From assembly GCA_023251235.1 (NCBI GenBank), contig JAHEZE010000003.1, forward strand, positions 1 through 64,000: a DNA stretch of 64,000 bases. The letters run 5' to 3'. The DNA comes from Sphingobacteriales bacterium. Lineage in GTDB: Bacteria > Bacteroidota > Bacteroidia > Chitinophagales > Chitinophagaceae. The notes beneath the pieces are model-generated. The model saw only the letters and a list, made by a program, of their open reading frames with translations. It had not been told where the DNA came from and did no database searches. The position numbers and the translations under genes are program-made. The number at the start of each line of letters is the position of its first letter. Position 1 is the first letter of the stretch. Positions 5,877 through 35,521 of the stretch are shown piece by piece.

Positions 5877-6017
5877 TTTTGTGTGTAACCGGCTTAAATT
5901 TTTCTATTAAGCTTTTGTTGCAAGTTTACCCAAAGCAAAGCGAAGGGCACTCTTCAACGCCAACAATTCTATTGAACAAAATCTACAATCTCAAATCCAC
6001 CAAAGGAGTTCCTTTGG
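5877..6017 (+). other. Structured 5' leader of aspS, similar to the glyA leader
   Basis: The leader shares ordered blocks with the glyA leader at 34098-34200: TTGTGT, ACC-x-GCT, CTATT, CTTTTGTTGC, GCACTCTT and AATTCTATT followed by CAAAA. From ACC to TTGTTGC, 26 of 34 positions match without gaps. The aspS copy has about 24 extra bases between TTGTTGC and GCACTCTT. A perfect 18-bp palindrome, CCAAAGGAGTTCCTTTGG, follows at 6000-6017, 19 bp before the start codon, and hides an AAGGAG. This could be a cis-acting RNA or a dispersed leader repeat; no protein is supported here. Confidence 0.55.
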
Positions 6018-6036
6018 AATAAAATCTGGAATCAGA

Positions 6037-7866
6037 ATGTATCGTACTCATACTTGTGGCCAACTTAGAATACAAGATCAATCAAAAACTGTGACCCTCG
6101 CCGGATGGGTGCAGACTATAAGAAAATTCGGCGCTATCACTTTTGTTGACCTGCGTGACCGATATGGTATTACTCAGCTTTTATTTGGCGAAGAACTGAC
6201 CCTGCAACTGGAACAAAATCCATTGGGAAGAGAATTTGTTTTACAGGCAACCGGCTTAGTAAAAGAACGCAGTAATAAAAATCCGAATATTCCAACAGGT
6301 GAAGTAGAAATTAATGTTTCTGATTTTGTCGTTCTTAATAAATCTGTTGTTCCCCCCTTTACTATTCAGGACGATACAGACGGAGGTGATGATATCAGAA
6401 TGAAATACCGTTATCTTGATTTACGAAGAAATACGGTAAAGAAAAATTTAGAATTACGTTATGCAGTTAATCGTGCTGCCAGAAATTATTTGCATCAGCA
6501 GGGATTCATGGATATCGAAACACCTTTCCTGATTAAATCTACTCCCGAAGGAGCAAGAGATTTTGTGGTCCCATCCAGAATGAATCCAGGTCAGTTTTAT
6601 GCTTTACCTCAATCACCGCAAACATTCAAACAGCTATTAATGATCAGTGGGTATGATCGTTACTACCAGATTGTAAAATGTTTCCGTGATGAAGATCTCC
6701 GTGCCGATCGTCAGCCGGAATTTACACAAATTGACTGCGAAATGGCTTTTGTAGAGCAGGAAGATATTCTGAATATGTTTGAAGGAATGGTGAAAGCAAT
6801 TTTTAAAGAAGTAAAGGGGATAGATTATATAGAAAAAGTGGAAAGAATAAGTTGGGAACATGCGATGTGGAACTATGGTAATGACAAACCGGATATCCGC
6901 TTTGAAATGAAAGTGCTGAATCTGAAAAAACCATCATCTGTTTATATAAATAAAAAAGATCGGCACGACTTGATAACAGGAGCCGGTTTTAAAGTATTTG
7001 ATAATGCAGAAACTGTTTTGGCAATTGCAGTACCGGGTTGCAGTGAATACAGCCGCAAACAAACTGATGAATTAACTGAATGGGTGAAAAGACCACAAAT
7101 CGGAATGGGTGGTTTGGGATATATAAAATGTAACGCTGATGGATCTTTCAAAAGCAGTATGGATAAATTTTTCAATGAAGAAAAATTAAAGGAAATTGCT
7201 GCTGCCTCTCATGCAGCACCCGGCGATCTTATCCTTGTACTTGCCGATGCCGAAGAAAAAACCAGGAAAGCAATTAGTGAATTGCGTCTTGAAATGGCCG
7301 AAAGGTTGGGTTTGCGTAAAAAAGATGAATTTAAATTACTATGGGTTTTAGATTTTCCTTTGTTTGAATATGATGTTGAAGAAAATCGTTGGGTGGCACG
7401 TCATCATCCTTTTACTTCACCCAAACCATCGGACATTGCAACGATGATTAATAACATTCCTGTTATTGAAAATCCAGCAGAATATTTAAAACATCCTTAT
7501 GCCAATATAAAAGCCAATGCTTATGATATGGTGCTGAATGGAAATGAAGTTGGTGGGGGATCAATAAGAATCTATCAAAGAGAGCTGCAGGAAAAAATGT
7601 TTGAAGCATTAGGAATGACCAAAGAAGAATCACTGCATAAATTCGGCTTTTTACTTGGCGCATTCGAATACGGAGCGCCACCACATGGTGGCATAGCTTT
7701 TGGATTCGACAGACTTTGCGCAATTCTGGGTGGCAGTGAAAGTATCCGTGATTTTATCGCTTTCCCAAAAAACAACAGTGGAAGAGACGTAATGCTGGAT
7801 GCACCTTCAACTATTGATGAAAAGCAGTTGAATGAATTGCAGATACGGCTCGATCCTAAGAGATAA
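6037..7866 (+). CDS. aspS: Aspartate--tRNA ligase
   Basis: The 609-residue class II synthetase charges tRNA-Asp with aspartate in the cytoplasm. An N-terminal OB-fold anticodon-binding domain occupies about residues 1-105. Motif 2 is visible as [17 protein letters not shown], and motif 3 as [10 protein letters not shown] near the C-terminus. Between them lies the bacterial GAD insertion domain (about residues 300-420), which distinguishes bacterial AspRS from the archaeal type. Length is normal for the family. The protein does not reveal whether it is discriminating or also acts on tRNA-Asn. The gene follows a long leader that may regulate it, and it is followed after 72 bp by rarA on the same strand. 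Confidence 0.97.
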
Positions 7867-18151: not shown

Positions 18152-19405
18152 ATGTATCATAAACAATTGACAATTGGTTTGTTTGGTTTTGGAGTAGTAG
18201 GTGAAGGTCTGTACAGAATATTACAACAAACTCCTTCCCTGAAAGCAGGCATAAAAAAAATTTGCATTAAGAACCCTGATAAAAAAAGAAATGCCCCATC
18301 AGATTTATTTACTACTGCCAGAAATGAATTATTAATGGATCCTGAAATCAATGTTATAGTAGAAGTAATAAATGAATCCGAAGCAGCATTTGAAATTGTG
18401 GCTACTGCATTAAAAAATAATAAAGAAGTGGTAAGCTCAAGTAAAAAAATGATTGCCGAACATTTAGTGGACTTACTTGAACTTCAGAAATCAACTAACC
18501 TCTCTTTTTTATATGAAGCATCATCCTGTGCTTCCATACCAATTATCCGCAACCTTGAAGAATATTATGATAATGATTTACTGCACTCAATAAAGGCAAT
18601 TGTAAACGGGTCAACCAATTTTATTCTAACAAAAATATTTGAAGAAAAAATGGAGTTTAGCCAGGCATTACTGCTTGCTCAGCAGCTCGGCTTTGCAGAA
18701 TCGGACCCATCGCTGGATATTGAAGGATTTGATGCCTTGAATAAATGGGTGATTTTGCTGACCCACGCTTATGGCATTGTAGAATCACCAGGGAATATTG
18801 TATTCACCGGTATTCAGAATATTAACCTGAATGACTCCGCGGTCGCAAGAGAAAAACATTATGAAATAAAACTGGTAGCACAGGCTAAAAAATTACAGAA
18901 TGGGAAAGTCGCCGCATTTGTTTTACCACAGTTTGTAAACCAAAGCGATCAACTTGCATTTGTAAAGAATGAATATAATGGTGTTGTTATTGAAAGTGGC
19001 TTTGCAGATAAACAATTTTTTTACGGTAAAGGAGCAGGCAGTTTTGCTACCGCTTCTGCTGTATTAAGTGACATTTCAGCTCTGCGGTACGATTACCATT
19101 ACGAATACAAAAAACTTTATCACCATCAACCCAATCAACTCACGGATGATTTTTTTCTGAAAGTATATGTAAGTTTCGACGACTTGCATCTTATTCCCCG
19201 GGAAAAATTTGAGTGGATAGAGGAATGGCATGCAGACCAGAAAAGAAAATATCTGGTAGGAGTAATTGCATTTTCAGAACTTAAAAAGGGAAAATGGTGG
19301 AAAGAAAATAAAACCTCGCTGATACTCACACCTGAGGCGGTAATTGAAGACGTTGAAATCAGGAAATTAAAAAAGAGAAGCCTGGAGCTGGCAGGGATCA
19401 TTTAA
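18152..19405 (+). CDS. hom: Homoserine dehydrogenase
   Basis: A 417-residue enzyme that reduces aspartate semialdehyde to homoserine, the branch point to methionine and threonine. The N-terminal nucleotide-binding motif is GLFGFGVVGEGL (residues 9-20). The catalytic domain carries the conserved stretch ASSCASIPIIRNLE and IVNGSTNFIL, followed by GFAESDPSLDIEGFDA, which is the homoserine dehydrogenase signature. A C-terminal extension of roughly 90 residues follows where some homologues have an ACT domain, but I cannot recognise one clearly. A SAM-I riboswitch and terminator upstream show that the gene answers to methionine/SAM status. It is a stand-alone enzyme, not fused to aspartokinase. Confidence 0.92.
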   Translation: MYHKQLTIGLFGFGVVGEGLYRILQQTPSLKAGIKKICIKNPDKKRNAPSDLFTTARNELLMDPEINVIVEVINESEAAFEIVATALKNNKEVVSSSKKMIAEHLVDLLELQKSTNLSFLYEASSCASIPIIRNLEEYYDNDLLHSIKAIVNGSTNFILTKIFEEKMEFSQALLLAQQLGFAESDPSLDIEGFDALNKWVILLTHAYGIVESPGNIVFTGIQNINLNDSAVAREKHYEIKLVAQAKKLQNGKVAAFVLPQFVNQSDQLAFVKNEYNGVVIESGFADKQFFYGKGAGSFATASAVLSDISALRYDYHYEYKKLYHHQPNQLTDDFFLKVYVSFDDLHLIPREKFEWIEEWHADQKRKYLVGVIAFSELKKGKWWKENKTSLILTPEAVIEDVEIRKLKKRSLELAGII

Positions 19406-34089: not shown

Positions 34090-34097
34090 CAAATTAT

Positions 34098-34200
34098 AAT
34101 TGTGTTACCAGCTGAAGTACTACTATTCAACTTTTGTTGCGTCGCACTCTTGTACAGTAATAATTCTATTCATCAAAAACTAAACTCTAAATTTTAAAAG
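34098..34200 (+). other. 5' leader of glyA, similar to the aspS leader
   Basis: The leader repeats the order of blocks found before aspS: TTGTGT, ACC-x-GCT, CTATT, CTTTTGTTGC, GCACTCTT, AATTCTATT and CAAAA. It is shorter, lacking the 24 bases between TTGTTGC and GCACTCTT. No reading frame is shared, so the conservation is at the RNA or DNA level. See the separate observation on this pair. Confidence 0.55.
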
Positions 34201-34213
34201 GAGAGTTTTTACA

Positions 34214-34236
34214 CTCCCCTTTTGGGGATGGGGGTT
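34214..34236. repeat. GC-rich hairpin element abutting the glyA start
   Basis: The stem TCCCC/GGGGA closes on TTTT, followed by a second G-run, TGGGGG. The layout matches the element inside the A2M gene. It covers the position of the ribosome-binding site of glyA and could reduce translation when folded. Confidence 0.5.
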
Positions 34237-34243
34237 AATGATT

Positions 34244-35521
34244 ATGCAAAAAGACATTCTTATTTTTAATCTCATCCGTAAAGAACTGGACCGCCAGCGT
34301 AATGGCATTGAACTTATCGCTTCAGAAAATTTTACTTCACTTCAGGTGATGGAGGCTATGGGAACCGTACCGACCAATAAATATGCGGAAGGTTATCCCG
34401 GCAAAAGATACTACGGTGGTTGTGAAGTGGTGGATGAAATAGAAACCCTCGCTATTGAAAGATTGAAAAAAATATTCAATTGCTCATGGGCTAATGTTCA
34501 GCCGCATAGTGGCGCACAGGCAAATGGCGCTGTTTTTCTCGCAGTCATGAAACCGGGAGAAAAATTTCTGGGTCTTGATTTAAGCATGGGTGGTCATCTT
34601 ACGCATGGAAGTCCCGCAAACTTCAGTGGCAAAACTTACCAGGCCTTGCATTATGGAGTAACCCAAGAGGGAATCATAGATTATGAACAACTGGAAGTAA
34701 AGACCCTTGCAGAAAAACCAAAGATGATTATTTGCGGGGCATCAGCTTACAGCCGCGATTGGGATTATAAACGTATACGTACCATCGCCGATGAAGTGGG
34801 TGCCGTGGTATTTGCTGACATAGCACATCCTGCCGGTTTGATTGCAACCGGTTTATTAAATGATCCTTTTGAACATTGTCATATTGTAAGTAGCACCACA
34901 CATAAAACTTTACGGGGACCAAGAGGCGGTATTATTATGCTTCGACATGATTTTGAAAATCCATGGGGACTGAAAGATCCAAAAGGAAATTTAAGAATGA
35001 TGAGTTCGTTGCTTGACCTTGCTGTATTTCCGGGTACACAAGGTGGCCCATTGGAACATGTTATTGCCGCCAAAGCAATTTCATTTGGAGAAATTTTATC
35101 AGATGATTTTAAAGCTTATGGAAAACAAATTATCAACAATGCACAGGCAATGGCCAAATCATTTATGAGCCGGGGGTATCATCTTATCAGTAAGGGTACA
35201 GATAGTCATTTAATGCTGATCGATCTCAGAAATAAAAATCTTACCGGCAAAAAAGCGCAGGAGACTTTGGATAAAGCTCACATTACCCTGAATAAAAATT
35301 CAGTGCCCTTTGATGATAAATCGCCGTTCGTTACTTCCGGTATCCGCATTGGTGTTCCTGCTGTTACCACCAGAGGCATGAAAGTAGAACATATGGAAAC
35401 GATGGTGAGTATGATTGACCGGGTGCTGATGAACATAGATGATGAAAACACAATTGATTTGGTAAGAAATGAAGTAAAGGAATTTATGAAGCAGTTTCCG
35501 CTGTATCCGGAATTAGGATAG
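34244..35521 (+). CDS. glyA: Serine hydroxymethyltransferase
   Basis: A 425-residue PLP enzyme that converts serine and tetrahydrofolate into glycine and methylene-tetrahydrofolate, the main source of one-carbon units. The PLP lysine is K221 within [17 protein letters not shown], the family signature. Other conserved blocks are [25 protein letters not shown] and [15 protein letters not shown] chose the second ATG (34244, MQKDILIF) because the family usually opens with MQxD; the ATG at 34238 adds two residues and lies against the GC-rich hairpin. The leader upstream resembles that of aspS and may regulate it. It is followed by a DUF4293 gene after 29 bp. Confidence 0.96.

Follow-up and report, generated by a model that had tools for sequence, protein, structure and literature searches.

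REPs, REP dimers and REPINs, with their GTAG and CGTC super-families (PMC3733652, PMC3116915), are found in high copy number between genes and avoid coding DNA; they often form inverted dimers of unlike members and are patchily distributed among related species. The same is true of the repeat of about 80 bp described here, but its arm of about 60 nt has no stem-loop of its own, no GTAG tag and no RAYT that it flanks. Single copies contain no palindrome, inverted dimers are the main arrangement, and close flanking of a RAYT by the repeat, as in the GTAG class, was not seen in the loci examined. CGTC-class REPs, which are without a known transposase, favour inverted, often mixed dimers (PMC3733652); CGTC is present within the core of the repeat, without the 8–9 bp stem after it. 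Atypical structures are reported to flank the RAYTs of the Bacteroidetes subclass 2.6 (PMC6006769). The likeness to MITEs (reviewed in PMC10969869) lies in units made of two arms with different core dialects (v1 and v2, below), which are short and non-coding and have long imperfect terminal inverted repeats. In this case the differences are that no parent insertion sequence was found between convergent arms in the sampled ~1.2 Mb, that the inner length is very variable, and that solo arms are common. The terminal inverted repeats are those of paired units in one genome (G431), solo copies having one arm only, and target-site duplications showed no excess over permuted flanks among 102 units. 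The repeat behaves most like a REPIN or a MITE, and fits neither definition fully.

The DNA uptake sequences of Neisseria and Haemophilus combine a very high copy number with an invariant core, dialects and inverted intergenic pairs. The repeat shares with them an invariant core at very high copy number, variable surroundings, dialects and inverted pairs, but it differs in its unit of about 80 bp, in arms of common ancestry, in that two dialects can occur side by side in a single genome and in its loss between sister species. We know of no uptake bias in Chitinophagaceae. Riboswitch-type leaders are similar only in that the two copies upstream of aspS and glyA are probably transcribed within a 5' leader; unlike such leaders, the repeat has no covarying structure, no fixed position or orientation upstream of related genes and no tie to a gene class.

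The copies in the aspS and glyA leaders

In the window, by which we mean the whole 64-kb stretch of DNA that was analysed, the leaders of aspS and glyA each hold a solo copy of this Chitinophagaceae repeat. It consists of a near-invariant core, CTTTTGTTGCGTCGCACTCTTGTAC, flanked by a T-tract/CCnGGC block and by ATTCTATTCAGCA. When copies are aligned with the core at positions 0 to 24, the T-tract lies at −34 to −28 and CCnGGC at about −22, followed by CTATTnAG, and ATTCTATTCAGCA ends at about +45; beyond these blocks the information drops to background. The conservation of the core is partly a matter of selection of the copies, since the core was used to find them, which is not the case for the flanking blocks. 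The 20-nt core has two dialects, v1 (GTTGCGTCGCACTCTTGTAC) and v2 (GTTGTGTCACTCACTTGTAC). The features in the window are as follows.

5877..5979, + strand: rearranged solo copy in the aspS leader (position weight matrix, PWM, 19.5 bits, second in the window; hit at 5877-5923)
5877..5921, + strand: left arm and first core half (to GTTGC) of the aspS copy
5922..5946, + strand: 25-nt insert AAGTTTACCCAAAGCAAAGCGAAGG splitting the aspS core, related to a longer composite in G585
5947..5979, + strand: second core half (GCACTCTTCAAC) and right part of the aspS copy
6037..7866, + strand: aspS, a neighbour only (PF00152, GAD domain, OB-fold)
34097..34175, + strand: intact solo copy in the glyA leader (PWM 37.4 bits, best in the window; hit at 34096-34142)
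34097-34130, + strand: left arm of the glyA copy
34131..34155, + strand: core CTTTTGTTGCGTCGCACTCTTGTAC of the glyA copy, dialect v1; the 21-mer is exact at 5 places in its own genome
to 34175, + strand: right part of the glyA copy
34238..35521, + strand: glyA, a neighbour only (PF00464, SHMT, serine hydroxymethyltransferase)

An earlier, sequence-only reading had described the same ordered blocks in both leaders, each behind a TAnnTTTG element, and in this it was right: all the blocks it named are found in identical order, and the TAnnTTTG box is present upstream of both copies. Its count of 26 identical positions among 34 from ACC to TTGTTGC, without gaps, was reproduced by direct counting, and the start it gave, 5877, is the left edge of the element. 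Within the 64 kb the two-block pattern GCACTCTT-N(4-20)-AATTCTATT occurs at these two sites only, and shuffled sequence contains none. The arm PWM was trained on copies from three other genomes, with the window's own genome excluded; it ranks the glyA and aspS copies first and second, while the third-ranked site is down to 13.0 bits. The aspS product belongs to the class II tRNA synthetases (D/K/N group) and has a GAD domain. Each copy stands downstream of the promoter box and upstream of the start codon, and so adds to the length of the 5' leader; there is no sign that either copy senses anything.

In sister species, too, both sites are occupied by the repeat. G511 and G585 have the glyA copy in the same place and on the same strand. 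In the copy-free G382 and G457, whose genomes are small, the glyA leader is without the repeat and a TTATTTTTG box stands a few bases from the ATG; aspS and glyA are intact in the copy-free sister species. At the aspS site there is a longer composite in G585 and one copy, of a variant type, in G555, and both leaders contain further core variants (around TTGCGACGCTCCGTTCAA). The aspS copy of the window, its core split by 25 nt, resembles what rearrangement of a G585-like composite would give. A stretch in the aspS leader of G382 could be a remnant of the repeat; the copy-free state of G382 and G457 could be either ancestral or the result of loss.

Each leader had also been described as ending in a hairpin near the start codon. 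This is correct for aspS, where CCAAAGGAGTTCCTTTGG (5998-6018) lies directly 5' of the start codon, separate from the repeat, but the hairpin is not common to both leaders, as glyA has an unrelated CTCCCCTTTTGGGG-type sequence. In sister species the aspS hairpin reads CCGAAGGAGTTCCTTTGG (G585) and CCGAAGGAGTTCCTTCGG (G555); the changes are paired and leave the stem intact, and going by these sequences it may be a real small RNA feature. The CTCCCCTTTTGGGGATGGGGG/CTCCCCTTTTGGGG-type sequence before glyA (34200-34236) has no counterpart in the leaders of this gene in G511 and G585. Since similar G/C-run sequences adjoin other copies of the repeat (L014 and L022, for example), it could belong to a second dispersed repeat. 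Elsewhere in the window there is a SAM riboswitch (RF00162, 17903-18033, 74.9 bits) upstream of an ORF at 18152-19405.

Distribution, context and structure

A dispersed repeat had been the alternative explanation of the sequence-only reading, and the many further copies in genomes of the family show that this is the correct one. A search of the 3.23-Mb genome to which the window belongs (181 contigs) gave 5 exact matches to the 21-nt core and 32 near ones, with up to 3 mismatches allowed, against none for the reversed control. A GTDB scan for the core returned at least 119 stretches, and among the 80 matches listed nearly all are titled Chitinophagaceae, Segetibacter, Flavisolibacter, Ferruginibacter, Cnuella or unclassified Bacteroidetes. 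Sampling across the phylum gave matches in 9 of 297 genomes, namely 7 of the 11 Chitinophagaceae and two others with a single match each; the exact core is found outside Chitinophagaceae in 2 of 286 genomes. Within a sample of the family it is present in 158 of 299 genomes and 74 of 104 genera, and the v2 core in 110 of the 299, with 791 copies in G431. Control motifs gave 0–1 in the genome samples. The highest copy numbers are 2,144 (G499), 1,548 (G439), 1,546 (G431), 1,516 (G126) and 1,193 (G353), and a single genus can range from 744 copies (G318) to 2 and 0; in two further genera sister species differ by 355 versus 0 copies and by anything from 155 down to 0. The density in some genomes is up to one copy per ~2.5–3.6 kb, and in some the repeat fills a large share of the intergenic regions. 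It is an abundant dispersed repeat that is new to the searchable literature: searches by sequence and by subject found no description of it there, and the core did not occur in a relevant context.

Codon-scored gene calls in three genomes (G126, G431, G348) place 5 copies inside genes versus about 466 between genes, and a coding-sequence reading is out, because the cores are nearly all intergenic. The T-tract frequently adjoins the stop codon of a gene that runs in the same direction. Intergenic regions between divergent genes are mildly avoided, and the downstream gene may be on either strand; simpler ORF calls at the GTDB loci gave a similar context, with either orientation to the neighbours. 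Insertion behind intrinsic terminators was considered and rejected, as only about 6–12% of copies have a marked hairpin just 5' of the T-tract. In two loci (L003 on contig C66 of the window's genome, and L118) a copy lies within a long opposite-strand frame, of 546 and 544 codons; this may reflect insertion, in frame, into a gene that is orthologous in the two.

A shared cis-acting RNA leader or operator governing aspS and glyA together, responding to translation or amino-acid status, was the first proposal made for these leaders. It is suggested by the position of both copies between promoter box and start codon and by the presence of the repeat at both sites in sister species, but it is now hardly credible. 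Hundreds to thousands of copies, in both orientations, lie near unrelated genes, the aspS core is interrupted in the window, and the copy-free sister species have intact aspS and glyA without the repeat. Among about 140 intergenic copies in other genomes, just 55 have a downstream gene in the same direction. The folding of single copies is no better than that of shuffled sequences, whichever strand is taken (mean z +0.2 and −0.2). The consensus structure of 93 aligned copies has 3 pairs and −0.26 kcal/mol, and the compensatory changes that had been proposed as a check are not seen, with zero pairs changed on both sides. Rfam has no match at the aspS or the glyA copy. The fold, covariation and Rfam results rule out a structured RNA, and a leader riboregulator is rejected because single copies have neither fold nor covariation, are almost only intergenic and occur in either orientation. 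The sequence-only reading was to be given up if further copies proved unrelated to gene starts and without covariation, and this is the case: further copies exist, but they show no tie to gene starts and no covariation. A dedicated regulator of aspS and glyA is refuted by the distribution of the repeat. A copy could be taken in error for a regulatory leader, for an operator or for a small ORF.

Pairing, copying and retention

Many copies have a second copy close by, and nearly always in one arrangement. A convergent partner within 400 nt was found for 139 of 278, 46 of 144 and 13 of 72 arms in three genomes, where divergent partners within the same distance number 3, 1 and 1, and tandem partners 0, 0 and 0. 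In G431, 57 of 71 close pairs join v1 and v2, and in 18 close pairs the spacing is exactly 47 nt, giving a near-palindrome of about 142 bp; in G126 and the GTDB loci close pairs are mostly v1-v1, so that a preference for mixed pairs stands out in G431 alone. Tight convergent pairs fold strongly (mean z −3.7). The two arms of one unit in G431 do not look like copies of each other, being less alike than permuted arms. The ORFs between convergent arms resemble ordinary housekeeping-type genes, and the idea that they are cargo was dropped for this reason. Neighbouring copies in G431, even those 1–4 kb apart (L236-L245, L216-L235), are on the same strand in only 41 of 271 cases, an alternation that is weaker in G126 and G348.

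It is likely, with a probability of roughly 0.6, that the repeat is a non-autonomous mobile element similar to REPINs or MITEs. The basic unit would be a convergent inverted pair of arms of about 60 nt, each with T-tract, CCnGGC, a variable stretch and the 20-nt core; convergent pairing is seen in the three genomes above, and the pair probably represents the ancestral unit. Such units may spread between genes by means of a putative enzyme, the loss of arms would leave solo copies, and the constancy of the core might come from recognition by that putative enzyme or by another DNA-binding factor. This reading is supported by the copy number, the restriction to one family, the intergenic placing, the kinship of arms, the convergent pairs, the mixed and near-palindromic units of G431, the strong folding of tight pairs and the swings in copy number within genera. 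Within one genome arms are related above column-shuffled controls and the sequence left of the element is not, which suggests that a unit of about 80 bp was copied. The identity profile of related pairs agrees with a unit of this length; because the pairs were chosen on their arms, the sharp left edge of the profile adds no evidence of its own.

Several results count against the mobile-element reading. No transposase was recognised, judging from sequences, among the ORFs between convergent arms in a sampled ~1.2 Mb; the RAYT loci examined are not closely flanked by the repeat; and target-site duplications are lacking. Mixed pairs are clearly favoured in one genome, G431, which also shows the kilobase-scale strand alternation. 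Moreover, the core persists while arms are saturated and dialects switch in place, which simple decay of relics would not predict. G431 and G348 (~76% nucleotide identity) have ten copies at the same site and on the same strand, with the core kept at 0.91; ungapped arms at these sites are no more alike than those of unrelated copies, and scoring with gaps gives a higher value. Within the window's genus, many of the genome's own copies have a counterpart in the same place and orientation in G511, G585 or G555, with diverged arms and a conserved core, and some dialects have switched in place; these loci were selected for holding the core, so a loss rate is not readable from them.

Such retention speaks for another reading, in which the repeat is a signal recognised at the DNA level and maintained by selection or by molecular drive, for instance an uptake sequence or the binding site of some abundant protein of the chromosome; the core is then what matters, and its copies need not move. 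This explanation is possible, if unlikely. The near-invariant core (0.91), the arms that at orthologous sites are like those of unrelated copies, the retention and dialect switches in the window's genus, the density of copies and the near lack of an orientation preference all agree with it. It does not account for the common ancestry of the arms or for the collapse of copy number between sister species, and the uptake sequences known to us are far shorter than the repeat unit. Its FtsK/KOPS-type polar form is rejected: the complete G431 chromosome shows no strand bias, with both strands in nearly every sampled stretch. That the core is a selected family-wide chromosomal address (an uptake signal or architectural binding site), unusually long, with interchangeable dialects and alternating strand, is doubtful, and the repeat can also serve as a case for asking whether a hidden DNA signal exists in Bacteroidota.

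Under the mobile-element reading RAYTs are the first suspects, given the Bacteroidetes subclass flanked by atypical structures (PMC6006769). Mobilisation as REP/REPIN elements by a RAYT (TnpA-REP, Y1 HUH) of subclass 2.6 is nevertheless improbable. The inverted dimers and the lack of target duplication fit it, as does the report that the structures flanking subclass 2.6 are copied elsewhere in the genome (PMC6006769), and a RAYT protein query found subclass-2.6-like genes in several copy-rich genomes, G431 among them. However, none of the RAYT loci examined is closely flanked by the repeat, similar RAYTs are found in the copy-free G300, G394 and G481, the query found none in the 744-copy G318, and single copies are without a palindrome; Pfam Y1_Tnp gave no match in G431. 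Since it pairs only convergently, mixes dialects and keeps its core at orthologous sites, the repeat is a good case for studying how short repeats persist without a known transposase. As a separate observation, two contigs of the IMG/VR viral collection (L007 and L008), which may be phage or host DNA, hold the exact core.
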